NCBI GenBank assembly: GCA_963681505.1
Contig: OY811978.1
Coordinates: 3,728,917-3,792,916 of the forward strand
Reading direction: 5' to 3'
Length of the DNA stretch: 64,000 nt
DNA from: Eunapius fragilis
Taxonomy: Eukaryota > Porifera > Demospongiae > Spongillida > Spongillidae
Each line of letters starts with the position of its first letter. Position 1 is the stretch's first letter. Below, in pieces: positions 1,440 through 54,724 of the stretch. The notes beneath the pieces are model-generated. The model made no database searches. It worked only from the letters and a program-made list of their open reading frames with translations, and was not told where the DNA came from. A program made the translations under genes and the position numbers.

Positions 1440-4400
1440 CCTATGGATACGGTTTCCTGTTGTCCATCGCAGTCAGTGGGACATCACTGTTAGCTCTCTT
1501 CCTCGTCCCCTGCATGAAGCCGGGGGCAAAGCTCTACTTTCTGTACAAACCAATCAACGCACTAATGATGGGGTCTGCCAGCTTTGCCCTCCTCGCTGAT
1601 GCAGTGCTGCACATCCTTCCTGAGGTACTTGGTTGTATGCATGTGAAGGTACACTGGTGGGGAAAGGTGTGCATATGAAGGTATGCAAGTGGAGGTGTGC
1701 ATGTGAAGGTGTACTAGTGGAGGTGTGTTTGTGACTTCAGGTGTTCTAGTTGAGGTGTGCTCGTGAAGGTTCTTGATCTTGAGGTACTGCCACAACCGTT
1801 GCTTGTCCACCCCTAGACATTTACTCGGCTCTGGTAGTCTACAAAAACTCACAATGCTCTCTCCTAATAACATGTGCTCTTTGAGTTTTTTCTAAGCTTA
1901 AAATGGCATGAACATAAAGCTCTATAACGTGATATCTAGCAAGTTGCCAACCAGAGAGAATGGCGACTGAAACTAAATGTAGTTTCTATATCATGGAAAG
2001 CCTGTTGCATACATATTATTGTCAGAGCAGTTGCAAAATTTCAGTCTCTTAACATTACTTTTATCTTGTTCCTTTCATATTTACTAATGTCAATGTGTCT
2101 GATTATAATATATGGACAAGCCAACTATATAGTATTTTATCTTTACTTTTTTTTTTGACAAGTGTTCTCCTTACTGACTTTACTGCCAACTTGTGGTTCA
2201 TTTGTTGTGGTGTTTTCTCACACACTTCCTTCTATTCCTTCTGGGTTAATTGTACGCTTGAACCAATGGTTTTAAAATGCTTCTCTCTTGTTTGCAAAAG
2301 GATTTCAAACCGCAATGTGAAACATACTCCTCATGTGGTATTACTTCATTTTCAATGGGGAGCTGCATTTCCTTTTGTAAAATATGTTCAATGCTTTTTT
2401 TGAAGCTTGATGAGATTTTAAAAAGTTTTAAGTACTACCTTGATTCTGGAATCTGTGTTTTGGAGGTGTTTAATTTTGAACCTCACTGTTCAGGGATAAG
2501 GCCACCTGTATTCTCAATGGCTTCTAGACTTGGCAGAGTTACAGGCTCTGCATCTTGCTACAATCTCTAATTGAGGGTCACTAGCTGGTACTGGGAAACT
2601 CTGACCCCTTGCTTTAACATACGCTGCACTGTCGGCTAAACTGATTTTATGCAATAACGGTTCTGCTGCTGGTACAGTCCAATGGTATTAAAGCCATTAA
2701 CCAAACTTCCTCTCCAACTTTTTTAAATGAACGTGTTTGCTCACAATTGTCACATGTGTGCTTCTGCTGTAGCCCATGTATGCTTCTGCTGTAGCCCATG
2801 TATGGACTTCATCACTTGAACCTCTTGCCATTTTGAGTGAGCATCTACCACCAGCAAGAATATCCGCCCCCGGAATGACTCGGCGAAATCAGCCTGTAAC
2901 CTGGACCAAGGTTGTTTGGCCATTTCCCAGGTAGGTGGTGTAAAATGACATATAACTGACAAGTGTCACAGGTTTTTAAAAAACCAATTTCTCTAGGTTA
3001 CAATCCATTGTGGGCCACTGCACATCACTTTGAGCACAGGCCTTTCGTTTTCATAATCCCTTGAGCACAGGCCTTTTGTTTTCACAATCCCTTGAGCACA
3101 GGCCTTTCGTTTTCATAATCCCTTGAGCACAGGCTTTTCGTTTTCACAATCCCTTGAGCATGGGCCTTTCGTTTTCACAATCCCTTGAGCACAGGCCTTT
3201 TGTTTTCATAATCCTTAAGCACAGGGCTTTCGTTTTCACAATCCCTTGATGCATTTTGTGTAATTCATCCAACATGCAAGTTACTTCTCATTCTGGGAGG
3301 GACATCAATCCGAGAGCCCCACAACAACACTCCAGCCTGGACACTGACTTCTTTCTTCCTAGACTTGTATGGATAGAAAAGTTTCCCCCAATTTCTTTTC
3401 TGTCCATCCTTTAAGGACAAACTGACAAACCCGTGGCAATACTGGATCTCGTGTGTGTTTCTTGACAAGTTCAGATTGTTTTGTACCTTATGCTCACCGA
3501 TTGAGTAAATGGTCAGAATAAAAGGTCAATGGACAACGGAGGGCAAGAATGAAATTTGATAACCTCAAAAACAATAGCAAGGCCTCTTTGTTGAGTTGGG
3601 AGTATCTCCTTTCTGCTTGAGATATGGTTCTGGAAGCATGTCCCACTGGTCTCTCCAGTGCCATCATGGGCTAGAACTGCACCATTCTGAATGATGAAGC
3701 ATGAAGCGGGTCATTTGTTGTGGTGTTTCTCACACACTTCCTTCTGCTCCTTCTGAGTTAATTGTAAGCTTGAACCAATGGTTTCTCTCTAGTTTCCAAT
3801 AGGATTTCAAACCGCAATGTGAAACATACTTTCCATACTCCAAGCTACATTTCCCCTTGAAATATCAACAACAAAAAACGGTGAATCTTTGTTGAAGCTT
3901 GGTTCAAAAGCTGTTTTTTGATCTTTATTGACAATCTTTGACCAGCACAGAGACAGCACCTGATTAGAATGTTCTGTAAGGCCACTAGTCTTGGAGCCTA
4001 ACGCAGAGCAATGTTATTGTTGTCCGATTTACATGTACTTATAGCAGACAGAGCCACCAATATGTAAACACCTACCCTATCCTACACCTGCCCTAGTCTA
4101 CACCTACCCTAGTCTACACCTACTCTAGTCTACACCTGCCCTAGTCTACACCTACCCTAGTCTACACCTACTCTAGTCTACACCTACTCTAGTCTACACC
4201 TACCCTAGTCTACACCTACTCTAGTCTACACCTTCTCTAGTCTACACCTACCCTAGTCTACACCTACCCTAGTCTACACCTACCCTAGTCTACACCTACC
4301 CTAGTCTACACCTTCTCTAGTCTACACCTACCCTAGTCTACACCTACCCTAGTCTACACCTACCCTAGTCTACACCTACTCTAGTCTACACCTACTCTAG

Positions 4401-11827: not shown

Positions 11828-14406
11828 TTGATGCATGAATGTGCTGTACTGTCTTATTCTCTACAGATGAAGGAAGGAGGTAAACCTACTTCTGATGATC
11901 CTAAGGCGAGTTGAAGTGTTCACCGCGGTTCCCTCTGGTGGTGGTTATGGTTAAGGTGGTGGAGGGGAGGGGAGGGTGATGATCATTTATTTGGGATGGT
12001 GCTGTCGAGACCAGAATATTAATGGTGTGTCTTTATTCGGCCTCCCACACAGGTGGAAGTTCATCACAAGTACAGCCGCTGGAACGTGTGCAGGTTCAAG
12101 CCACTCGTATGGCTGCTGATCACGGGAGACAGCATCCACAACTTCACTGATGGGGTGGCACTGGGTGCGGCCATCGCCTCAAGCCTCTCCCTTGGGATCA
12201 GCACGGCCATTGCTATAGTACTCCATGAGATTCCCCATGAGCTGGGTAAGGTCCTGGCCATGGGGCTGTCAGTCATGTGTCTATATCCTTATAAGGGGAT
12301 GGGTCAAAATACCAATGTGTCAATTGGCGTTACATTTTGTATATGCACAGGAGAAAGGGACCTGTCTAGCAATACACAGAGTAGCCATGGATACTCACGT
12401 TTAATATAGTTTTTATTTTTTTTATCGGTACTAATCCTGCCTGAACAAGCACAAAACAAAGGTGCCGCCTATAAACCTCTGCCCCCATCGGAAAAAGGGA
12501 AAAAAGGCTCCTGCGTATCTCCGTAACCGCAAATGCCTCTGCAAACATGTTCAACCTTACAGGAAATAAAATGATACCAGTTACAAAAGTGTTCAGTTAC
12601 AAAAGTGTTCAGTTACAATAGTGTTCAGTTACAATAGTGTTCGCGATTAAGACTAGTAAGAGTGTACTTACTCTTCCATCCAGAAAACACTGCTACTTAT
12701 GTCTTTTAACCCTTAGTTCAGAAGTCCTTTCCTGACCTTTGACCCTGACATGTGCTGTGCACAAAAACATAACATCAGGGACCAGAATCCTTGCACTCCT
12801 TTTGTCTGCTCCCCTCCCCCACCCCCCCACCCCCCCCTCTCTCTCTCTCTCACTCTCTCTCTCTTTCTCTCCTTCACTTGGAACACATTACATGCCCCAT
12901 ATATACAAGTAAAGAAAAACATTCTCTAACGAGAAAGTTGGTGGGATATAGGAATTGGAGGCAATGGTGGTGTTAAAAGGAAGGGAACAAGGTTTTGAGA
13001 AAAGGGTAATGAGACAAAAATCCTATATTTAACACTTCTTTTGGTTCTGTTACATTTACACGTGCTCAATATAGGATTTTTGTCTCATTACCCTATTCTC
13101 AAAACCTTGTTCCCTTCCTTTTAACACCCCCATTGCCTTCAATTCCTATATCCCACCAACTTTCTCGTTAGAGAATGTTTTTCTTTACTTGTTTCCTCTA
13201 TTTTTTAATTATCATTTTTTATCCATTATTAATGCTAGCAAGTGCCCCCTCCCCCTCCGCTTTAATTACCGTCACGAGCAGACGCCCGCTTTTGTTTGGG
13301 ATCACTGTAAGGAACGCAGGAGAATTCTAACACGTCGTCTGCTCTCCTCTTTTGTTTGCGCAATTCTAAATATACGTAAATGTCGCCATGGGAACGCTTC
13401 TATTTAACACTACGCATTACGTAATGATTACTATGTCAGTTTTATGCTTTATCTGATACCTAGAGATGTCCTTCCGAGAGATTCTAAAGCGATTGGTATA
13501 ACTTGCGCTCTTTAAAACCGTTCCTATCCTGAGTTATGCTCACCCGAGAATTAGAAGAAGACGACGACGGAGAAGAATTGGGCTGGGAACGAGGAAAAAC
13601 ACGAACGTTTTTGTTCTCTTAAAGCAAACAGTTTGGAGACTGGAACAAAACATTAAAATGACCGCCTTTGCCTTCTTGATCGATAGGCACAAAGAGCTAA
13701 ACTATCCGTTTCTTACTACGCGAGTTATACGCTGGTCGCGTTTTATAAATGATATTCACGACCCGGGTCAATTCCTATATAGGAACTACTATCGTAGTTC
13801 CTGATAGCCACACTTTGTACTTATCATTATATGCGTGCATGTCCATGAAATATCAAACATCTTGTCTACAGGCATGGTTCTGGATATTATCGGTTATATC
13901 AATGTTTTACATACAAATATTCAATAATATCCTGTTTACTTCTTTGTATACGCCTCTGCACGGGCATTCTATTGTTTCAGTAGGCCCATTTTTATGGGCC
14001 TGTGGTTATGTAGTCTGATTGTTGATGGCTGTGGCCCTCCTTACAACAGTATGCAGGTCCATTTGGATATGGCTCTGATGTGTTGAGACCATGTTATTTA
14101 TACATCGATGCAATGAAGTGTGGACGTATTTCACGTCAAAGTTTCACACACAATTCTCCTGAATGATGCCCACCTCCCTCTGGAATCTCTCTCCCATCCA
14201 GGTGACTTTGCCATCTTGCTCTCAACTGGTATGAATTGGTACACAGCTTTCCTGCTCAACTTTCTGCACGGCCTTACAGCAATAGTGGGGTTTTTTGTCG
14301 GAGTTGCTATAGGAACTAATAGCGAAGTGGCTGTGAATTGGATACTAACAGCCACCCTTGGGATATTTCTGTACATATCCCTTGTGGACTTGGTATGTTA
14401 TTGCAT

Positions 14407-34132: not shown

Positions 34133-34721
34133 GTTTGTTCCCTGTGGTCTTACCGTACTTAGGGCATAGATTGCACATTGTAGACATAGATAATGTGTGG
34201 TAACCGCATTAACTATGAATCAGGAACTGCGGTAGTAGTTCCAATATAGGAATTGACCCGGGTCGTGAAATCATTTTAAAAAAACCCGACCCGCGTATAA
34301 CTCGCGTACCAAGAAACGGATAGTGTAGCTCTTTGTTGCTATCGAACCAGAAGGCAAAGACGGTCATTTAAATGTTTTATTCCAGTCTTCAAACTGTTTG
34401 CTTTAAGAGAACAAAAAGTTCGTGTTTTACCTCGTCCCCAGGCCAATTCTTCTCGTCGTCTTCTTCTAATTTTCGGATGAGTATAACTCCGGATAGGAAT
34501 GGTTTTAAAGAGCTCCAATTATACCAATCGCTTTAGAATCTCCTGGAAGGACATCTTCAAGTATCAGATATATCATAAAACTGACATACGTAATGCGGAG
34601 TGTTAAATTGAGGCGTTCCCATGGCAACATTACGTATATTTAGAATTGTGCAGCGTTATAAACCGGTGGGATTTCATTTGATTGCAAACTAGCGAAGTTG
34701 TTTTTTTTTTTTTTTTTCAAA

Positions 34722-35372
34722 ATGCCTCCACGTCAACTAAAGAGGAGAGCTAAACGACGAGAGGAATACATCCAAAATCAGGACGACGAGTTAGAGTCCT
34801 CCCGCGAACCTGAAAAAAAAGCGGGCGTCTGTTCGTGACAGCTACAGAGCAGAACCTGAAAAAATGCGAGCGTCTGTTTGTGACAGCTACAGAGCAGATC
34901 CTGAAATAAAGCGGGCATCTGTTCGTGACAGCTACGGAGCAGACCTCACCTTGAATCGAGCCGAGCTACTAAGAGGCAGCGTTATGAACAGAATTCTGAT
35001 ACGGTGCGAGCTTCTAAGAGTCAGCGTTATGAACCGAATTCTGATGCAGTGCGAGCTTCTAAGAGGCAGCGTTATGAACAGAATTCTGATGTGGTGCGAG
35101 CTTCTAAGAGGCAGCGTTATGAACAGAATTCTGATGTGGTGCGAGCTTCTAAGAGGCAGCGTTATGAACAGAATTCCGACGAGATGCGAGCTTCAAAGAG
35201 GCAAAAGTATCAGCGCAATTCAGTGACCAATCGGGTTTCCTAAAGGAGTGCATATTGGAGTAACCCTTCTGCTGCGCGTTCAGCGAAAAGGACGCTATAT
35301 CAGAAGCGTCCGGAAGGGAAGCGTGAGACGGAGAGAACACGCTACTACAAAAAAAAAGACTACCACCCAAAG
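34722..35372 (+). pseudogene. N-terminal coding exon of the Helitron-like element, frameshifted
   Basis: ATG at 34722 opens MPPRQLKRRAKRREEYIQNQ. A run of eight A at about 34813 shifts the frame. The next frame reads RASVRDSYRADPE-type repeats, then a further shift gives about five 15-residue repeats of RASKRQRYEQNSD (34960-35200). The exon ends in YYKKKDYHPK before a good donor, AAG|GTGAGT, at 35373. Such basic Arg/Tyr/Asp repeats are familiar at the N termini of multidomain transposon proteins in sponges and cnidarians. That is recollection, not a search. The copy at 53990 keeps the same start codon context (MPSRQPKRRAKQ) with an early stop. Confidence 0.65.
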
Positions 35373-36779
35373 GTGAGTTATGCACGATGTGTGATTGGCA
35401 TGGCTTGGCGCGCGTTTTCGTGTAGAGCAGCTGCAATGGTGACATAACTATAAACAATGTGTTGCTAGGCAATAAATATGTTAAATCTTGGTACCAGACT
35501 TTATTCCGCACCCAACTATGTGTTTCTAGCATGTTATAATAAGCGCTAGTGTTGTACTGGTTTATAGCTGACATGCATGATGTGGTATAACGTTGCTAAG
35601 CAATTGCAAGTGGTGGTAAACTCTTAGACATGTATGTGGTTATGTGTATTGTATGTTTTGTGCTTATCCCTTAGTGAATAATCATATGTACTGCTTATTC
35701 CATTGTACCTATATGAGCCCAATGATAATTTACAATTAGAGTACAAGGGGGGCCTTACATACATGACATGTCAAAGAACAGTCATTGCCCACATATGCTG
35801 TGTTACCGTGCTATTAGACTTGATAAACACTGGCATCCAGTTCATTAATTCTGTTGTTGTGTTGATGCAAAGATGTCAGATGATAGCAATATCATGCGTG
35901 TGTTATGGTGTCGTGATCCCATCCATCCATATGCCTAAAATGGGCGACAATGAGTGAGCTTGGGCCTCATGAGATCCCCACCATGAGTGGATAATACGCA
36001 TATATTACATATGCGGGGGACCTATTCTCAATGGCAAATGGATGAAAATAACAGTATTTTCTAGGCTCTAGTCTGGTTAGAAATAGCACTCATTTAATAT
36101 TTCAATGTTGATCCACCCAGAGATAATGTATTGGTTTCTAATCCAAGGACCCCAACTTCTGGTAGATTAGACTGCTGCAGCAGGATCTTATTATCTGTTT
36201 ATTATTATTATTCATAAAGTGATTCCTCGAATGAAGGCATAGTGGAACTACAAAGGCAGTATGCAGTTGTCCGTCCCCTATGCTTTCTGTGCCAATCTGA
36301 TGACAAAACGCACAAGGCCAGCAGTCCCAACAATGTTGTCAAGGGGCAACAAACTCAGCGGTGTGCAATTGTATTCATGCACAAAACCTTATGTTTATAA
36401 CCTTTATAACCTATAGTTGTAAATTGCTTACACATGCACAGCTGTCATAAAAGAATGATCCTACTCATGTGGACCTCTTCTTAACCCAACATGACAACAT
36501 GACAGCATTTACCAAAAAAAAAGTTAACATCATGTTTACAAAGAATCTGCGCGTTACACAGCTGTCCTCAAAGAATGATCCTAACATGGACCTCTTCTTG
36601 GCATCTTAAACTGGCGAATAGAATTATTTGGTTAATGTATATATACTGATAGATGTGCGCTATTATTATTCACACTTAAAATCAACAAAAAATGGTTAGT
36701 TAAAGTAATTATTGATGTACATTTTCACGATTCTTTCAATATCGATCAGGCTGACGGTCTTCGAGAAGTAGTAGTATCC

Positions 36780-37060
36780 TCATCGAGGAGGAACGCCAGC
36801 TAACAGCTGGCCCCTCCCAACGAGGAACTCGGCAGGTTGGCCGGCACAGGCAGGAGGATGAGGAGGACCCGCAACTGCCCCAGGACAAGGACCTGCGGCC
36901 AAGGGGTCTGCCTCAGGACGAGGACACGCGGCCAAGGGCCCTGCCCCAGGACAAGGACCTGCGTCCCCAGCCCCAGGAGGAGGAGGACAGGAGACCGGCA
37001 CAGGCCCTTCCATAGAGGCCGAGGCCGTGGAACAAATGTTTTTAGTATACATAATGCTTT
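36780..37060 (+). other. GC-rich charged frame inside Helitron-like copy 2
   Basis: A 280-bp island far richer in GC than its flanks. One frame reads LPQDKDLRPRGLPQDEDTRP and similar 16-residue repeats up to TAG. A second frame is Arg/Gly-rich (FHRGRGRGTNVF). It could be an exon of the element or a captured gene fragment. Confidence 0.4.
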
Positions 37061-37408
37061 TTAAAATTAATATTATATGTATGGTTTAGTAGTTTTAAGG
37101 TTTTAAAGTACATGCATATTCTCTGCAACATTTTATCTTCAATAATAGTAAAAAAAAGGAAAAAAGAAAAATAAAAAAATAATTTTAAAAAAGAAAAAAT
37201 ATGGTAGAACTATTCATGTATTATTATTCTATAGTAATATGTATTCATGAATTGCTTATACACGCGCGCCTGCCCGATTATACCGCTTGGCCACTATAAT
37301 GCAACACATGGTCACTAAAATGGCCCGTCACTGTTCACAACAGTTATTAAATAATTAATTGTGAAGTTCCTTGTTTAAATAAAAAATGATATAAAAAAAT
37401 TGAGGAAA

Positions 37409-37695
37409 CAAGTAAAGAAAAACATTCTCTAACGAGAAAGTTGGTGGGATATAGGAATTGGAGGCAAAGGTGGTGTAAAAAGGAAGGGAGTAAGGTTTTG
37501 GGAAAAGAAAAATGAGACAAAAATCCTATATTTAGCACATGTAAATGTAACAGAACCAAAAGAAGTGCTAAATATAGGATTTTTGTCTCATTTTCCTTTT
37601 CCCAAAACCTTGTTCCCTTCCTTTTTACACCACCATTGCCTCCAATTCCTATATCCCACCAACTTTCTCGTTAGAGAATGTTTTTCTTTACTTGT
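37409..37695. repeat. Terminal palindrome of the Helitron-like family
   Basis: Two arms of about 135 bp beginning 'acaagtaaagaaaaacattc' pair almost perfectly around 'gcacatgtaaatgtaacaga'. The same palindrome, in the same relative orientation, ends copy 1 (12904-13190) and begins again in copy 3 (54208-54385), so it belongs to the element and is not an independent MITE. Confidence 0.8.
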
Positions 37696-37769
37696 ATAAA
37701 TTTCAATACATCTAACGAGGTAATGCGCTTATAACGAGTGCGCTCTTAATGAGTTCAAACTGTATGATG

Positions 37770-39285
37770 GATAATACGAATTTTCGCCCCCTCCCTAATA
37801 GCTATTCAAGGCGTTTCTACACCCTTACACACCCAGGAAAGTTCATATTGTATCAAATACTATAATACATATTTGAAACATTTATCTCAGTAAGTGTATA
37901 CATAATTGTATCAGATAAGTATCATAATAGCAATACATTTTATTTTTGCATATCTGCTTACCTAAATCAATATTTCAAATATGTTTTTTGCTATGTACAA
38001 TCACCAGTTATGATACAAATTTGAACTTTCCTGCCTATTTTAGTTTTACGCACATGGTCCACTAATTGCGATGGAGGAATTGGTAGCCGTAGCTCAGCGA
38101 TATAGCGTAAAAACTGTGTACACTAAACTATGCAGAAGTTGTATAATTTTGCGAACGCTATTAAAACAGAAGATCCTAAACCTTTATTGGCTTGCAACCC
38201 TATTTGTACCCTTGGCTTAATTTTTTTTTTTTAAAGAAAGTATTGTTTGCCTGTATATGTAATCTAGTTTCTTTGCAAGTGGCTTCATTGAAAAAGTTCT
38301 TGTCACTGTATGCAAGCAAGGACACTGACCCATCAAAATGAAACTGTGCATTTATTGCATAGGAGGAAGGGTTAAGTTCATTTTGTCAGCAACTCGACTC
38401 GAGTTGCTGATTTTTTTTTTGTTGTCATTTTATACTATAATGCGACACAACCTTTAATTAATTTCTTACAAATACAAATCTAGTATTTAATTAAAGTCTG
38501 CGGGAACCACATTTCTCACCTGTCCTTGCGAAGGTCCTCACCAGGGACATTCAAAGCATCACCTCTGGCTTTGTGGCTTGAGGACGCTGATGGTTAGCGT
38601 TCAAGATGTAGTTGTGACTGCCAACAAACATGCCACCAAAAGCACTTCCCTGTGAACATGCACGCAGTGCCTCCAGCCAGCTGTAGGATTACGTTATGCA
38701 TGGATACCTACAATAGGAACTGATGCTGTGACCTTGTCATTCAAAAGGGGAGGGTACCGACAGTGTCAGCCCGTTGTGCAGCATGACTTTGGTTTTTTTT
38801 TTTTGTCCAACACTTTGCTTTTTAGGTGGTCTTTACACGTGAGCTGAATCTATGCTCTGTCCTCGAGCCGATTCCACACTGTTTATACACCACTGGCATC
38901 CACACCACACTTCTCAAGGTGGGTCCTTGCAATGGTAATGAGTGTTGAATTTGTACATCAGTTATCAATATTTTGTTTGTTGAGCGTAGTGCTCTCTCTA
39001 AACACTGCATGACACTCGTTATGGGATCCTATGATTTCTTATCTGTAGGTGCCACTAACACTTCACCATTCCTGAACTTTGTGTGTTGCTGTTGAAAACA
39101 CCCTTCTATCTCTATACTGGCTCACGTTCGTTGTAAAATATAATGGCATGTTGTGAGCATGGAATTTTTTTTTGTGGCTCTGCCATCTGTATCTGTAGTG
39201 CACGACACTAGTACTCAAGTCTGTGACATGGACATAAACCACTAGGTGCATGTCTGGAGCATGCATGCATGGTTGCTCGTGTGCT
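37770..39285. other. Intergenic, no gene accepted
   Basis: AT-rich with short poly-T runs (38220, 38410, 38793). A 62-codon minus frame at 38822-39010 has no recognised motif. Confidence 0.45.
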
Positions 39286-39463
39286 TAGTTTTAAATACTA
39301 CAATGGTACTGGATATGAAAGACATGAAGACTTCAATGGGACACCTAATTCAAGCATGCATGGTCCGCGGCTAAAATTGACCATGCATGCTTGAGTAGGT
39401 GTTCCATTGAAATCTTCACATCTTTCATATCCAGTACCATTGTAGCATTGAAAACTAAGTGCC
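39286..39463. mobile_element. Foldback element with about 80-bp arms
   Basis: 'ttagttttaaatactacaat' and the following bases to 39368 pair with 39380-39463 in inverse. The loop is short and holds 'ccgcggc'. No ORF. Probably a MITE or a hairpin duplication. Confidence 0.7.
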
Positions 39464-40102
39464 ATACTCCATTTATATAATGGCATGGTTATCATTATGT
39501 GACAATGGTGGGCATTTTCCATAGTCACAGGGATTTACTCTTTGTAAGATAGAAGAACTATTGTACTTAGATTTACATGGCAGCATTTTGATCAGTGCGA
39601 TACTTAGCAGCATTGAGTTAAAAGGTTCCATTTCTAGTAAAAGGGCGGACTTAACTGATTAAAAAGTAACTGCTAAATGTATACACAAATATACAACATA
39701 GAAGAAGGGTTAGACAGAGGGTGTCTTACCCTAAACAATAACAGAGTAAGGTGACGTTCATAAACAGGATGGTAATGTGATGACCTGCTATGGCAGCAAT
39801 AAAGGAAGTAGAGTTCATTACCAGCTCACTACAAAGGCTTTTCTTGCTTGGTTGAGATCATGTCTGCTGGCCACCTGTAGAAAGTTGAACACTCTCAAGC
39901 CATTCTTCTAGGTGCCGAAAAATGGAGTAAATAAACGCCATGTTCAACTTCTCTCACTCGTTGACTATATTTTGGAGTGGTATTAAGTTGGAAAACCCTT
40001 GCATCAAAATATGCACCCTCCCCATTCCAAATAACCCTTGCACGTATAACAAGGTGTGCATTGCCATCACTAGCAGAAAGCCTTCACCAGTAGTGGTCGA
40101 CT

Positions 40103-40190
40103 TTCGGGCGACTGCATGCAACTCAAATGAATACCTGTAAAACATAAAGTTTTGCCAAACTTTCCAGTATTCATTTGAGTTGCAGGGATA
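40103..40190. repeat. Small inverted repeat
   Basis: 'gcaactcaaatgaatacctg' pairs with 'cagtattcatttgagttgc' about 45 bp later; related 'gtcgac' stretches flank both sides. Confidence 0.65.
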
Positions 40191-40819
40191 AATCGGCAGG
40201 AAGTCGACCCGTGTATGCCACCTGTCCATAAGCAGTAACATTATGCTACCTCTGACAACAAGGATGCAGTGAAACCACTAATTCCATCATGGCAAATCGT
40301 CATCAAAAAAACCCCAAGTTGTTATAGAAAATGAGTTACAGTTGATTTTATACTTGGATAAGCTATATCGCAAACAAAGTGCATCTCTGAACTCACCCTT
40401 ACACAGAGACAAACCCAAACTCAATTAGAGGAAGTACAGCGTGGGCACCCACTGTAGAAAGAATTTCACCATTGCCTTAATTAATCAGTCGTACTGGAGA
40501 TTGATATGTATTGTTGAGAATTTGTGCAATTGGCGACAGGTATTCTTATGTTGTGAAGAGCAGCTTGTGTGTTAATCAGTTAAATGCGTTGGTTGCATCA
40601 ACAAGTAAAATGCTTCTTCATGGAAAATACAATGTATGTCGTAGCAGAAGTGTCACACCCATGACCTTAATGGAGGTTGAACACCTTTAAAGTGATAGTA
40701 CATGAGTGTGGTGATGGTAGTGACTGTGTAGCAGTGATTGTGCTCCAATTAGCATTGCATGTTCTACAAACACATGACATACTCTCCTCCCCATTGCACA
40801 GACACGACAGGAAATTATG

Positions 40820-40854
<35 letters not shown>

Positions 40855-41230
40855 TGAGCATATGCATATTTAAAATCCCTTTTACACACACAAATATATT
40901 GCACAGTGTTAGGCAAAAATATGTTGCATGACTCACGTAAGATTGTAGTGCCCATCTGGAGTTTGTTAGAGAGGGATAGACAGAGAATGTAGTATGCCTG
41001 GATAATTTTGCAAGTGTTACATGTTCATGTCTGTTCATAGCGTAGGTTGTGTATTTAATTAACATGTCAATTTACCATGGATTGTAGCGCGCCTAATAGC
41101 CACCAACTGGGGGTATTGTCTGACTTGTGGGTCAACATACATTTTGCACTTTGTTTAAGAAGATGTATGTGCTTGCATGTGTGTGTGTGAGTGTGTGTGT
41201 GAGTGAGTGTTGTGTGTGTGCGTGTGCGCA
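40820..41230. repeat. Diverged copy of the interspersed repeat also at 43.1 and 62.0 kb
   Basis: Contains 'gttaggcaaaaatatgttgc', 'catctggagtttgttagaga' and 'agtatgcctgga', shared with 43165-43330 and 62045-62205. GT microsatellites lie at 40821-40852 and 41178-41225. Confidence 0.65.
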
Positions 41231-41399
41231 CGTGCACGTGTTTTGTTGAAGTATCTATGTGTGGTATTGCACAGAGGAGTGTTCTCTCTTCTATTGTACT
41301 CACCCTACCACATCAAGATTCTCTTAAAATGAAACTTCACACATTTAAAACAAGGGTACATTGACCTGTGACCTGGACTGACCAACCTTCCCCACTTCC

Positions 41400-41772
41400 A
41401 AGGGCTAACATATCCCCCACACGGCTAACATATCCCCAAGGCTAGCATATCCCCCCCAAGGCTAAAATATCCCCAAGGCTAGCATATCCCCCCCAAGGCT
41501 AACATATCCCCCCCCCCCCTCTCCCAAGGCTAACATATCCCCAAGGTTAACATACCCCCCTCCCCTCCTAAGGCTAACATATCCCCCCCCCCCCCCCCCC
41601 CTTCCAAAGGCTAACATATCACCCCGCCCCTAACATATTCCCCCCCCCCCCCCCCCGGCCAAGGCTAACATATCCCACCCCCTCCCAAGGCTAACATACT
41701 CCCCCCTCCAAAGGCATATCTCCCCAAGGCTAACATATCTCTCTCCCCCCCCCCCCCCCCCCCCCCCCCCCG
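41400..41772. repeat. C-rich minisatellite (AAGGCTAACATATCCCCCC)
   Basis: Irregular units of 'aaggctaacatatcc' with poly-C of variable length, up to about 27 C at 41745-41771. The motif returns at 42285-42365 and, inverted, near 45500-45545. Confidence 0.9.
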
Positions 41773-41955
41773 GAAGGATTGCTGTGGAGTGTGCTTTGAC
41801 CATCAATGTGTATGCATGCTTATGCTCCTCAGCAGTGAATTGTGGCACAAAATGCTTGGCAATAAATCCACTGAGCGTTCCACTTGTGGCATGCCCTTGT
41901 GATGCAGCGTCCTTGGAGTCAATTGAAGCTGTCTGCTTAGACTCTTCACTGTAAC
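41773..41955 (-). CDS. Possible exon of an unrecognised gene
   Basis: On the minus strand, a good acceptor ('aatttgtgttacag') precedes a frame reading EESKQTASIDSKDAASQGHA and then GFIAKHFVPQFTAEEHKHAY. It runs into the poly-C tract without an evident donor. The composition looks coding but no family is recognised. An alternative frame is also open for about 45 codons, so frame and function are uncertain. Confidence 0.3.
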
Positions 41956-42439
41956 ACAAATTACGAATGGATGAGCCATAGATAGGCCATACACTTAGAC
42001 AAATATAAAATTGAAGACAACATACATGTTATGAACATCAATTAGATGCATTTTTCATCCTTGTAGTCGACCCATCACTACGGGGAATCCATACAGTTTC
42101 ACCTCCCTTTTGACACACAGCACACAAAGCCCATTTGTCTCAGTTAGAGCGGGGTGAGAGTTTAAAGTGCTTCCACAACCACACGTTCAAACACTTAGGA
42201 CCAGAAGGATGGAATGTACCATTAACGGCAGAAGCGTAAGGTTTCATTTCACTATTGGGACACTTTTTCATTTTCGTATCCCTCCCAAGGCTAGCATATT
42301 CCTCTCAAGGCTAACATATTCCTCCCAAGGCTAACATATCCCTCCCAAGGCTAACATATCCCTCCACACCACATGGCCAAGCCTACCTGCAACATCACAA
42401 TTATTACATGTGTTTCTCCACCCACCCACCCCCGTTCCC

Positions 42440-42580
42440 ACCTCCAATTGCAATTGGAGGAGCGATCACTACATTTAAATGACATAAACGTGCACATGTT
42501 TCTATAAGGACACTGTCTGATAGATTATCCATCTTGAATACACACTCCAGCAGTGGCATGGGCCACTTACCTCTAAGCTC
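42440..42580 (-). CDS. Possible exon upstream of the 41.8 kb exon
   Basis: A minus-strand frame reads PLLECVFKMDNLSDSVLIET followed by CARLCHLNVVIAPPIAIG. It has an acceptor-like 'gcttag' before it and a donor GGAG|GTGGGA after it. It could join the 41.8 kb exon, but phase 1 at this donor fits a different frame there than the one that looks most protein-like. No family recognised. Confidence 0.3.
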
Positions 42581-42762
42581 AAGCCACAAAAATGTGAATT
42601 AGGCAGCTGGTCCCTGCTGTGTGTGGTTTACAGTGTATGAGTACAGGTGCGCAAAGTGATGTCAAACAACACACCTGTGCAATACAACCACGCATCCAAC
42701 ACTTGCACTGTGTACAGGCACTGGAACAAAACGCTTGCACACACTCGCTCTCACTTACACAA

Positions 42763-43120
42763 ACAAACATACATACATACATACATACATACATACATAC
42801 ATACATACATACATACATACATACATACATACATACATACATACATACATACATACATACATACATACATACATACATACATACATACATACATACATAC
42901 ATACATACATACATACATACATACATACATACATACATACATACATACATACATACATACAAACATACATACATACATACATACGTACGTACATACACAC
43001 ATACATACATACATACATACATACATACATACATACATACATACATACATACATACATACATACATACATACATACATACACACATACATTACATGCATA
43101 CATACATACATACACACACA
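42763..43120. repeat. (CATA)n tetranucleotide microsatellite, about 350 bp
   Basis: About 85 units with a few interruptions (cgta, caca). All six frames are open, giving artefactual Tyr/Ile/His/Thr or Met/Tyr/Val/Cys ORFs. Confidence 0.97.
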
Positions 43121-43125
43121 CACAT

Positions 43126-43330
43126 ACATCTTCTTAAACACAATACATATGTATGCTGATCCACAAGTGTTAGGCACAAATTTGTTGCATGACTTAGATA
43201 AGATTATAATATCTCAGTGGAACGTATCCAGATCAGATCCAGGTTAATAAGGGAGTGTGGGCCGTGGTAGTGTCTATCTGGAGCTTGTTTGTAAGAGAGA
43301 GATAGCAAGGAAAGAAGTATGCCTGGTCAT
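43126..43330. repeat. Interspersed repeat, copy matched at 62.0 kb
   Basis: 'catcttcttaaacacaatac' through 'aagtatgcctggtcat' matches 62007-62210 at high identity, and both copies directly follow a CATA/CACA tract. No ORF. Confidence 0.8.
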
Positions 43331-43761
43331 ATAAATTTGTAGCACACCTAATATAGTGTCTGTGTACAATACATTTGTGTGTGCTAAAGGGAATTTTTGT
43401 TTACATGGTAACTCCTTGTACCACTGTGCTAACATGAATATGCTCACAAACATCACACAGACACATACACAAACACATACATACACATTACTATCTTGTC
43501 TGTGCCTGTGCAATGGGAAGGAGGGAGGAGTTAGCCTGACTGATATCAGAGGAACAGACGGAGACACATCATGGATGTCCTGTGTTTATGGTACCAGTAG
43601 AAGCATGTGTACTCGGCCAGGATAAGTACTCATAGGTGTACACTACATTCATGTACATTTCCTGTGGGTCCAGCATGGAGATAACACTGGCAGTTTTACC
43701 TAAGTTACCAGTAGGGATTGGTACCTTGTGCAGCCACATGCAGTGCTGCTGATGATGAGAT

Positions 43762-43776
43762 GTGTGTGTGTGTGTG

Positions 43777-43830
<54 letters not shown>

Positions 43831-44008
43831 AGATTGTAATATTCATAAACTTTCTTCAGTGTTTACTACTTTACGTATATAGGGGTACAGGTACAGGTAG
43901 TGTCCATGTCAAGGTCCCTATGCTGCCATGTATCTAATAGGTATTTGGTTAGCCATGCACGCTTGAAGACTATAATGTTACACTCACTGTAACTAATCAG
44001 TGTTAGCA

Positions 44009-44088
<80 letters not shown>
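43762..44088. repeat. Tandem duplication of about 258 bp with internal (GT)n
   Basis: The block 'ggagattgtaatattcataa' through 'cagtgttagcaattg' (43829-44010) repeats at 44088-44270, each preceded by a long GT tract. Further GT/CA tracts and 'ctgtaactaatcagtgttag' copies follow to 44620. Confidence 0.9.
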
Positions 44089-44089
<1 letters not shown>

Positions 44090-44268
44090 AGATTGTAATA
44101 TTCATAAACTTTCTTCAGTGTTTACTACTTTACATATATGGGGGTACAGGTACAGGTAGTGTCCATGTCAAGGTCCCTTGCTGCCAAGTATCTAATAGGT
44201 ATTTGGTTAGCCATGCACGCTTGAAGACTATAATGTTACACTCACTGTAACTAATCAGTGTTAGCAAT

Positions 44269-44335
<67 letters not shown>

Positions 44336-44361
44336 TTGTGTGTGTGTGTAGAGACTGTAAT

Positions 44362-44399
<38 letters not shown>

Positions 44400-44562
44400 G
44401 TAACTAATCAGTGTTAGCAATATTACAGTCTCTACACACACACGCACACACACACACACGCACACACGCACTGTAACTAATCAGCACACACACACGCGCA
44501 CACACACGCACTGTAACTAATCAGTGTTAGCAATATTACAGTCTCTACACACACGCACACAC

Positions 44563-44621
<59 letters not shown>

Positions 44622-45057
44622 GAGTACTTATCTTGGCCGAATACACAATGCTGTGTCTCTGTTCCACTGATATCAGTCACAAGCTTCAGAGGAATGTGTT
44701 TGTTGTCAACAACAACTTATTTGTTTTCTGCAAAGCCTTGCACACAGAGTAGAGTAGTAGCAGTTTGCTGACATATGGCAACTGCTAACATTAAACAATC
44801 CGAAGGATTGTGAGTGCTAGAAGATAGAATTAGGGCTTAGGGCAGGGTAGGGGGGCCGAAGGCCCGCTACGCCCCTCAACTTTTCACCCCCTCTCCGAAT
44901 CCGCCCTCAAATTGCACCCGTCCCTCCCTCCCGACGCTCTTCATTGAAACTCACTAACTCACCCTCTCCTTAATAAACACCATCTTTTTGAACGAGGGCG
45001 CCTTCGGCGCCATACTCTATCTTCTACTACCATAGCAGTAGTTTTGATCCCTATGCG

Positions 45058-45180
45058 GTCTCATCCCTTGCAGGATTAATGGCTGCCACATAGAGCTGGT
45101 TGTCAAGGGCCCTGCACACAAATGCATGCATGTGGGATTAATTCATATGTGTGTTATGTTGGGTGCATACATTGTCACCA
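45058..45180 (-). pseudogene. Duplicated fragment of a NIT2 exon and its upstream intron
   Basis: The segment matches 18213-18345, covering about 60 bp of the NIT2 exon starting [11 protein letters not shown] plus about 65 bp of adjoining intron. The splice acceptor context is altered ('ccctgcacacaaatgc' instead of 'ccctgcgttttgtg'), and one codon changes Ser to Asn. No other NIT2 exons lie nearby, so it is a non-functional fragment. Confidence 0.8.
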
Positions 45181-45871
45181 TGGGGGGGGGGGGGGCAGAA
45201 GTATATGGTAGAAGTATATAAAGGCACCCCCCAGGCTTAATTTTTTTTTCATAGATCAATTACAAATTAAATGTCTTGTTTTTTGACCTAAATAAGACAA
45301 TTTTTAAATTAATACTAATACATCACTAACTTAGGCTGGTATTTTGGCACCCTCACTGCATTTTGGCGGCCCTGTTTTTAGGACCGCTGGGTGGGGGAGA
45401 GCAATTGCCTACCCGGCCCCACCACCACTGAAAGAATACATGAAGGTGGGGTTGAGGGTGAGCTTGGCCATGTGGTGGAGGTGGATAGCCTCGGGAGGGA
45501 TATGCTAACCTTGGTTGGGGGGGGGGGGGGGATATGTTAGCTTTGGGAGACAATCTTGCCACACAGACAAAAGTGTGCATGTGTGTGTGTGTGCATGTGT
45601 GTGGTGTGAGCATGTGGTTTTATTAATGTGTGCACACCATAACGCCACTGATTCTCCTCCCTGCCCCGATCCTTTACTCAGTGCCTCCAATTGCAATTGT
45701 GAAGGCCTCCCCTTACTATGGCCTTGTACAGTACCAGCTTGGAATAGTAGCACATACATCAGCGGTACGTGTACAGAAGCGTATCATCCTCAAGTTCATT
45801 TTGCAAGACTGGCAACAAAAACGTATAATACATCAGCATTTACATATTTTTGGGTAATAAACATAATTATA

Positions 45872-46052
45872 CAGTCTGACCTCGTTAAGAGCGCACTCGT
45901 TAGTAGCGCATTCCCTCGTTAGATGTATTGAAAATTTATTTCATGGTTGATGCGGGTACAACACATTATCTATGTCTACAATGTGCAATCTATGCCCTAA
46001 GTATGGTAGTAGCGCAGGGAACAAACCTAGCGCTACTAACGGGAGAAGACTG
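45872..46052. mobile_element. Pogo/Tigger-like MITE, uninterrupted copy
   Basis: Flanked by TA. The left end is CAGTCTGACCTCGTTAAGAG. The right end inverts to CAGTCTTCTCCCGTTAGTAG. The CAGT...CCTCGTTA style of end is typical of pogo/Tigger elements. The interior matches the two halves around 34133-34219 and 37697-37762. Confidence 0.75.
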
Positions 46053-52638: not shown

Positions 52639-54724
52639 TTAGATCAACTGTTCAATGAGGGCCTGAGGCACTGTACAATGATGACTGCTGCTGCCTGCAT
52701 TACAAGGTGCACGGAAAGCCTTCACCTTCTGCTCTGTTTCCTGATAGGCCTGTAGCTCCTTCAGTGATGCCTCTGCCATTCAACCATGAGCATACACATC
52801 AGTAGTGTGTGAGGAGCATACACATCAGTAGTGTGTGAGGAGCATACACATCAGTAGTGTGTGAGGAGCATACACATCAGTAGTGTGTGAGGAGCATACA
52901 CATCAGTAGTGTTTGAGGAGCATACACATCAGTAGTGTGTGAGGAGCATACACATCAGTAGTGTGTGAGGAGCATACACATCAGTAGTGTGTGAGGAGCA
53001 TACACATCAGTAGTGTGTGAGGAGCATACACATCAGTAGTGTTTGAGGAGCATACACATCAGTAGTGTGTGAGGAGCATACACATCAGTAGTGTGTGAGG
53101 AGCATACACATCAGTAGTGTGTGAGGAGCATACACATCAGTAGTGTGTGAGGAGCATACACATCAGTAGTGTGTGAGGAGCATACACATCAGTAGTGTGT
53201 GAGGAGCATACACATCAGTAGTGTGTGAGGAGCATACATATCAGTAGTGTGTGAGGAGCATACACATCAGTAGTGTGTGAGGAGCATACACATCAGTAGT
53301 GTGTGAGGAGCACACACATCAGTAGTGTGTGAGGAGCATACACATCAGTAGTGTGTGAGGAGCATACACATCAGTAGTGTGTGAGGAGCATACATAAATG
53401 CATATACACTGTATTACATGTGCAACACACACACACACGTACATCAATGTGCATGTACACACGTGTGCACAACAATGTATCAGGAACTACGTTAGTAGTT
53501 CCTATATAGGAATTGACTTTGGTTGTGAATATCATTTTTAAAAACGCGACAGGCATATAATTCGCGTACCAAGCAACGGATAGTTTAGTTCTTTGTTGCT
53601 ATTGAACCAGAAGGCAAAGACGGTCATTTTTATGTTTTGTTCAGTCTCCAAACTGTTTGCTTTAAGAGAACACAATAGCTCGTGTTTATTCTTGTTCCCA
53701 GACCAATTCTTCTCCGTCGTCTTCTAATTCTTCTCGGAAGAGAATAAATCGGGATAGGAACGGCTTTAAAGAGCATAAGTTATACCAATCACTTTAGAAT
53801 CTCCTGGAAGAACATCTTCAGGTATCAGATATATAAATAAAGCATGAAATTGATTACGTAATCATTACATAATATGGAGTGCTATATTAAAGCGCTCCCA
53901 TGGCAACATTAATGTATAATTAGAATATGAACAGGTGCGATTTCATTTGATCGCAGTTTTGTTGGCTAGCGAAGTTGTTTTTTTCAAAATGCCTTCACGT
54001 CAACCAAAGAGGAGAGCTAAACAATGAGAGGAATACCTCCAAAATCGAGACAACGAGTTAGAGTCCTCCAGTGTTTGGTACAATGCTGATCCTGAACAAA
54101 GTGGGCGTCTGCTTGTGATGGTAATCGAAGTGGGAAAGAGGCTACATTATGACTATATCTTGTCAGCACTTGTCTGTATTCGCAGATATCATCAACGATA
54201 AGTAGAGGAAACAACATTCTGTAACGAGAAAGTTGGTGGGATATAGGAATTGGAGGAGGAGGCAATGGTGGTGTAAACAGGAAGATAACAAGGTTTTGGG
54301 GAAAGAAAAATGAGACAAAAATCCCATATTTAGCATGTGTAAATGTAACGAACCAAAAGAAGTGCTAAGTATAGGATCTTTCTTTTATGCATGCACACAC
54401 ACACACACAGACACACACACACACATACGCTCCCCAGCACACTCCAAATACATAATATGCACACACACACACACACCTTGTGCATACTCATATGCACATA
54501 CATACTACCCCCTCCCCCCCCACCCCAACAAACATACATACATTTATGCACACAAGATACGCCTAACCTGCCTTGACAGCAGCCCTTGCTCTGCTCAACA
54601 CACCATGCAGGTCAGAGAGGGCCTCCAGGACCTGACTACAGTGGGTCGTGGGATGGCACAGGATGTTACCCACATCCCTAACGGCTGACACAGAAGATTC
54701 AAAAGAGGTATACAGGTCTTTACT
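52639..54724 (-). CDS. Last two exons of an unrecognised helical protein
   Basis: Exon 54724-54568 has a clear acceptor ('ctgtcattcag') and donor (AAGGCAG|GTTAGG). It encodes SKDLYTSFESSVSAVRDVGN, then QVLEALSDLHGVLSRARAAV. It joins at phase 1 to 52772-52639, which encodes ASLKELQAYQETEQKVKAFR and ends in PQALIEQLI before TAA. Heptad-like spacing of Leu/Val suggests an alpha-helical, possibly coiled-coil, C terminus. Upstream exons are not identified and may lie beyond the retrotransposons or outside the window. I do not recognise the family. The intron between the exons holds a 26-bp minisatellite and Helitron-like copy 3. Confidence 0.6.
52790..53392. repeat. 26-bp minisatellite, about 23 units
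   Basis: Unit 'gcatacacatcagtagtgtg' plus 'tgagga', very uniform, with only a few single-base variants (gtttgagg, catacatatc). The high uniformity suggests recent expansion. Confidence 0.96.
53480..54385 (+). mobile_element. Helitron-like element, copy 3, 3' truncated
   Basis: Starts TCAGGAACTACGTTAGTAGT after an A. It follows the same body, keeps the start codon context at 53990 with an early TGA, and reaches the terminal palindrome at 54208. The second arm is lost a few bases past the centre, where CA repeats begin (54393). Confidence 0.75.
54385..54475. repeat. Compound (CA)n tract
   Basis: CA units with interruptions, abutting the truncated Helitron-like copy. Confidence 0.85.

Follow-up and report, generated by a model that had tools for sequence, protein, structure and literature searches.

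In described Helitrons, the 3′ hairpin is short and lies some 10 nt inward of the terminus; such hairpins are known as stop signals, failure of which leads to the capture of neighboring DNA. In Helraiser, the Rep-helicase starts at TC, stops with the aid of a hairpin, forms circles and inserts at AT, and Helraiser lacking the 3′ hairpin shows more frequent read-through (PMC4778049; here and below, statements on published elements refer to parts of the cited papers). FoHeli1 begins with TCAG, and compensatory changes in the ends have been reported for Helitron2 and FoHeli (PMC3627910, PMC5148889). The DNA considered here is a stretch of 64,000 nucleotides from the sponge Eunapius fragilis (assembly GCA_963681505.1, contig OY811978.1; G000:C8:3728917-3792916), hereafter the window, and the genome searched with it comprises 219 Mb in 24 contigs. 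The window contains three copies, one of them truncated, of a transposable element family that begins with TC, ends with CTTG and closes with a palindrome of 286 nt. With a joint probability of about 0.86, these copies belong to a Helitron-like rolling-circle family that is inserted between A and T (A^T, where ^ marks a junction or cut), is moved by the Rep-helicase of its relatives and uses the terminal hairpin as a stop signal.

The extent of the element (TC…CTTG, inserted at A^T without target duplication) is read from a nested copy, a split copy of a longer related family (here family X) and tallies of both ends. The nested copy, at C1:21969988 (L105/L106), lies within another copy of the family. 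When its flanks are joined (GAGTA^TAATTCGGG), they are identical near the junction to the sequence of locus L063, and in 45 of 48 matches that span the junction in uninterrupted copies, no insertion or deletion lies closer to it than about 5 bp. The split copy of family X lies on C1 and is interrupted by another member (insert C1:11851168-11852629, 1462 bp by coordinates). Its left piece matches family X to query base 473 and its right piece begins on the same base (L117 position 1017), directly after …ATTTACTTG, the empty site being AATA^TAAAATAACC; the base common to both pieces is a T, which opens the insert (TC) and stands after A in the empty site. Target duplication is absent from both of these clean comparisons of filled and empty sites. 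Among 100 listed 5′ ends, recounted by eye, TCAGG is found in 98 and CCAGG in two; the base before TCAGG is A in 92 cases, G in 3, T in 2 and C in 1. For the 3′ end, 100 places were listed, of which 47 were taken by eye as outer ends and 53 resembling inner arms were dropped; CTTG is present in 41 of the 47, T follows in 39 of these 41, and the base after that is A in 16, T in 11, C in 6 and G in 6. Some rows of these tallies are segmental duplicates, so that not all are independent. Matches resembling head-to-tail junctions number six genome-wide against two in a backwards control, too few to serve as traces of circles, and were dropped as such; at G000:C2:13199278, a near-exact junction of this kind joins CTTG directly to CCAGGAACTACG.

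Within the window, the 5′ end motif occurs three times (34220 and 53480 on the plus strand, 13804 on the minus strand; 0.00 expected, and none of 100 shuffles reached three), and the preceding base is A in every case, as the initial annotation had observed. The 3′ motif occurs four times (0.01 expected), which corresponds to both arms of the palindromes at 12906-13191 and 37409-37694. The longest copy (34220..37694, plus strand, 3475 bp) is defined by its end motifs and the flank tallies. It begins with TC followed by a small terminal hairpin (34220..34242, plus strand), a design shared with family X, and closes with the 286-nt palindrome (37409..37694, plus strand; supported by fold, covariation and motif). 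The T at 37695 belongs to the host, a miniature inverted-repeat transposable element (MITE) whose left part (34133..34219) and right part (37695..37762), both on the plus strand, were delimited by joined-flank comparison. As had been proposed, the joined flanks match an uninterrupted relative (88% over 168 bp) at 45872..46052 on the minus strand, an approximate empty site with TA at both sides by eye.

The right boundary cannot be fixed from this MITE taken alone, because small shifts around the junction separate the joined flanks (GAA+TATAAATTTC) from the relative (GAAATAAATTTTC). Insertion at A^T without duplication, first claimed from the MITE, is ambiguous there by one base and holds because the nested and split copies on C1 decide it. 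The terminus CTTGTA (37696) assigned initially is accordingly two bases too long, the element ending with CTTG at 37694. Both ends had also been ascribed to all three copies; this is correct for the copy at 34220 and for the short non-autonomous copy of 899 bp (12906..13804, minus strand, with its 3′ terminal palindrome, recognized by the 3′ motif, at 12906..13191 on the same strand). The third copy (53480..54381, plus strand) has the 5′ end and has lost the 3′ terminus, breaking off at about 54381, which is element position 3365 of 3475 and lies inside the right arm of the palindrome.

The window copies are decayed or non-autonomous, and the one at 34220 is both internally deleted and decayed. 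Its 5′ part is 87% identical to a longer relative at C7:3050852 (L069) over 1584 aligned columns, and its 3′ part is 84% identical over 568 and 94% over 387; it thus retains much of the 5′ 1.5 kb and 3′ pieces of that relative without the Rep-helicase middle. Tandem repeats are present in the N-terminal coding region both in the window copy (34800-35210, RYEQNSD-like) and in family X (L117:1206-1481, SYKANPEKKKASV-like).

The genome contains 91 matches to the Helitron_like_N domain, two of which lie in relatives of the window element, namely L069, which has a Rep remnant, and L070 (C6:1788467), in which Pfam detects Helitron_like_N, PIF1 and Pif1_2B in broken frames. A further frame of L070 is OTU-like by eye; Pfam gave it no score. 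For L069 and L070, no 5′ end was located; a candidate at L070:273 was rejected as a loose match outside the part common to the window element.

Family X (L019 and its kin) is about 72% identical to L070 in DNA over 2.4 kb that include Rep. It starts with A^TCGGAACCTACGCGAGTAGGTTCC and ends in the same kind of palindrome (94% self-complementary, CACTTG^T), is flanked by A and T, has a 5′ hairpin of the same design as that of the window family, and measures 10,521 bp from start to end (C1:1774145-1784665, by coordinates). Its open Rep frame is listed as 1977 aa, of which the 1188 aa that were read are free of stops and contain Helitron_like_N, DUF6570 and the start of PIF1 (Pfam). Two copies are 100%, 99.95% and 100% identical over the 485, 2101 and 666 bp compared, and the first 756 bp match at 100% in 9 of 40 scored places; such near-identical copies suggest that family X moved recently. 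In the freshwater sponge Ephydatia muelleri, the source of the closest named proteins to this Rep, the Rep-helicase P0003 (Em0003g78a) is 90% identical to the Rep region of family X over 421 aa and combines Rep, PIF1, Pif1_2B and DUF6570 in one protein of 1993 aa, with an OTU match below the cut-off (21.7 versus 23.3). In P0012, a listed relative of the Rep of family X, OTU is above the cut-off (47.1). No DDE transposase was found in the proteins scanned against Pfam, including those of L070, family X, P0003 and P0012. Rep and PIF1 domains in relatives, for which the initial annotation had proposed to test, support its assignment to Helitron-like elements, which had been based on a start with TC, insertion at A^T and the absence of duplication. 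The genome also contains a canonical Helitron (L009, C9:2930795) with an open Rep frame that scores 907 bits against Helraiser, so that two kinds of Helitron coexist in it.

When up to three mismatches were allowed, a genome-wide search gave 802 + 838 matches to the 5′ motif (31 + 157 for a backwards control) and 3475 + 3426 to the 3′ motif (3 + 5 for the control). Since each motif is part of a palindrome and is often scored on either strand, we infer about 800 5′ ends and about 3,400 hairpins. The excess of 3′ ends could be due to divergence of the 5′ ends (those of family X are distinct) or to loss of 5′ sequence by truncation. At some places, two or three 5′ ends are stacked within about 25-80 bp (L051/L052, C1:5183639-5183704; L059/L060, C1:6840589-6840636), as if new copies had landed at or beside existing 5′ ends, or slippage had occurred. 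Two loci (L045/L046 with L111/L112; C1:1964010 and C1:2028045) agree in the element and in some 1.34 kb of adjoining 3′ sequence and differ in their 5′ flanks. Identity in 150-bp bins is 0.92-0.99 within the element and lies mostly at 0.95-1.00 in the shared flank, and recombination inside the element fits these bins as well as read-through capture, for which the pair was therefore not accepted as proof. A common 3′ flank of L087 and L088 was likewise rejected as read-through, only about 30 bp being shared. A short repeat with ACGT runs lies beside several 3′ ends (flanks of L087, L088 and L095/L096) and is maybe a favored landing place.

The 3′ end, described initially as a non-textbook palindrome of about 285 bp, folds as single-stranded DNA into one hairpin of 286 nt at −142.2 kcal/mol, compared with a mean of −26.4 (sd 3.8) for 200 shuffles. 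A scripted search yielded 28 hairpins, some of them not clean, and 20, from the window and other loci, were aligned, with family X and diverged members deliberately included. On the structure of the window copy, 97.4% of alignment cells pair, compared with 92.0% in shuffles and 42-51% with slid partners, and 44 of 128 pairs show compensatory (two-sided) changes, compared with 14.7 in shuffles and 3-12 when slid. Two biases apply to these numbers: the structure derives from one of the aligned sequences, which gives it an advantage in the slid control, and relatedness among the copies raises the values of the shuffle control. The double changes are spread over most of the length of the hairpin. 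Compensatory change of this extent across 20 copies shows that the palindrome is kept as a structure across family divergence. A palindrome of the same kind adjoins the shortened Rep frame of another relative (L035:2378-2664).

By analogy with Helraiser, a Rep-helicase of this kind would move the window copies, and the giant palindrome is most likely an enlarged rolling-circle stop signal. The HUH Rep and PIF1 helicase protein of longer relatives would nick the donor at the foot of the small 5′ hairpin (A^TC), and one strand would be peeled off after this nick. The process would stop, with a second cut, at the foot of the giant 3′ hairpin (CTTG^T), and the ends would be joined, probably through a circle, before the copy is inserted at an A^T site. 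The two arms of the 5′ hairpin show matched changes when family X is compared with the window family. A 3′ cut at the base of the palindrome would differ from the situation in Helraiser (PMC4778049).

Pairing could also be an unselected by-product if gene conversion or recombination between the arms maintains their complementarity and inverts the loop, an explanation that we hold to be unlikely, if serious. The asymmetric loop does occur in both orientations, with 42 and 24 strict pattern matches genome-wide; among 24 oriented hairpins, 16 have one orientation, 5 the other and 3 are unclassed. A looser count (25 FLIP, 15 FLOP, 12 unclassed) was discarded because some hairpins were counted in both orientations. 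Arm conversion would also account for complementary double changes: the 90 private changes in 22 family copies include 7 of these, besides 2 double changes of another kind, and independence predicts about 0.8 double changes. However, most private changes affect a single arm (51 left, 30 right), so that conversion after insertion is not strong, and the outermost arm bases, beside the cut, are among the most conserved, which is at odds with pairing as a mere by-product.

Less probable still is a parvovirus-like replicative hairpin, in which the palindrome would fold back and serve as its own template during transposition, so that the complementarity of the arms is renewed and the loop can be flipped. 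Such a process agrees with both loop orientations, with the compensatory changes and with a palindrome that ends exactly at the cut. If it operated, rolling-circle transposition and a terminal hairpin-transfer step would be combined in one element, and palindrome length, compensatory changes and the two loop orientations would be explained together. Nevertheless, no intermediates were seen, ordinary recombination between long arms gives the same outcome, and FLOP loops may share a single origin: the arm tree asks for four changes in the FLOP rows, but none of its branches is well supported.

It is very improbable that the palindrome is a passenger, that is, a foldback or MITE-type element that landed at the tail of an ancestral Helitron, the real stop being a short end motif. 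Palindromes with TA at the outer end do resemble MITEs, and hairpin matches are about four times as many as 5′ ends. Nonetheless, when 20 places were sampled by the 3′ motif, a palindrome could be measured in 13 (none in the other 7), and all 13 are preceded at the inner arm by family-like AT-rich sequence, by eye, most with GAGGAAA; with zero stand-alone cases among them, a stand-alone palindromic MITE is not favored. Moreover, the palindrome reaches the exact terminus in both the window family and family X, and its pairing is kept across family divergence. Finally, a DDE transposon with terminal inverted repeats mistaken for a Helitron is practically out of the question, since the long inverted repeats at one end and the TA that often flanks the ends are set against merely short inverted matches between the two ends, two clean sites without duplication, and Rep and PIF1 in relatives, which already contradict it.

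For the Helitron-like rolling-circle family with a terminal stop hairpin, several observations count on the other side. No intact copy of Rep was seen in the window family, and the Rep of its relatives matches Helraiser weakly (26.7 bits, versus 907 bits for the canonical Helitron of the same genome). The 3′ end is CTTG, not the CTRR of Helitron1. By itself, the host MITE agrees slightly better with …CTTGT^ than with …CTTG^T, and of 21 joined flanks only that of the nested copy (L105) matched an empty site good enough to use in the sequence compared, two L061 hits being poor. The pattern of A followed by TCAGG fails in 8 of the 100 listed 5′ ends, and CTTG is absent from 6 of the 47 picked outer 3′ ends. 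In E. muelleri, the listed homologue P0018 carries PF12762, which we take to be a DDE-type domain, possibly as a result of a fused gene prediction.

A family with an enormous hairpin at the cutting point, many copies and near-identical Rep-coding relatives offers a natural extreme for the study of hairpin function and of the use that HUH nucleases make of a hairpin at either end. Such ends would escape search programs designed for CTRR and a short hairpin inside the terminus. In addition, the combination of an A^T target, a TC start, a 5′ hairpin and a Rep far from that of Helraiser bears on how the ends of Helitron1, Helitron2 and Helentron evolved.

The family is a member of the Helitron superfamily, because its relatives L070 and family X encode Rep (HUH) and a PIF1-type helicase and because insertion occurs without duplication. 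It is not a textbook Helitron1. The 5′ TC and insertion between A and T are those of Helitron1, whereas the short inner hairpin of Helitron1 (16-20 nt, about 10 nt inside the 3′ end) is replaced by a palindrome that reaches the end. Helraiser is alike in its TC start, A^T insertion without duplication, Rep-helicase and 3′ hairpin; it ends with CTAG and has a 19-bp palindrome 11 nt inside the end, whereas in the sponge family CTTG closes the 286-nt palindrome itself and a 5′ hairpin is present too, unlike in Helraiser (PMC4778049).

By target, the family is neither a Helentron nor a Helitron2. Helentrons have an endonuclease domain and often carry an OTU-type protease, and they differ in their TT target (PMC4067079). 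An OTU domain is present in P0012 too, and Pfam matched no endonuclease family in either P0003 or P0012 of E. muelleri. The Rep-helicases of that sponge, compared here at the protein level, are also close. The closest kinds are proto-Helentron and Helitron2. The proto-Helentron of Phytophthora infestans shares a non-canonical Rep-helicase and A^T insertion without duplication; it has the ends 5′-TT and CTAG-3′ in place of TC…CTTG, and the parts of its description consulted do not mention a terminal hairpin of such size (PMC4067079). Helitron2 (PMC3627910) and the Fusarium elements FoHeli1/2 (PMC5148889) share a 5′ terminal hairpin at the very start together with a 3′ hairpin, and the sponge family likewise has hairpins at both ends; Helitron2 has short asymmetric terminal inverted repeats and differs in its target, being inserted after T-rich sites (PMC3627910). 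When nine short motifs were used to look for a Helitron2-type repeat, none of the nine was present in the 383 bp before the hairpin of family X, and AGTTCC occurred once, 45 nt before the hairpin at 37409. In the literature searched (titles and abstracts, with supplements and Repbase outside the search), no Helitron with a terminal palindrome of this size was found, and it is this giant, structurally conserved terminal hairpin that sets the sponge family apart from described Helitrons.

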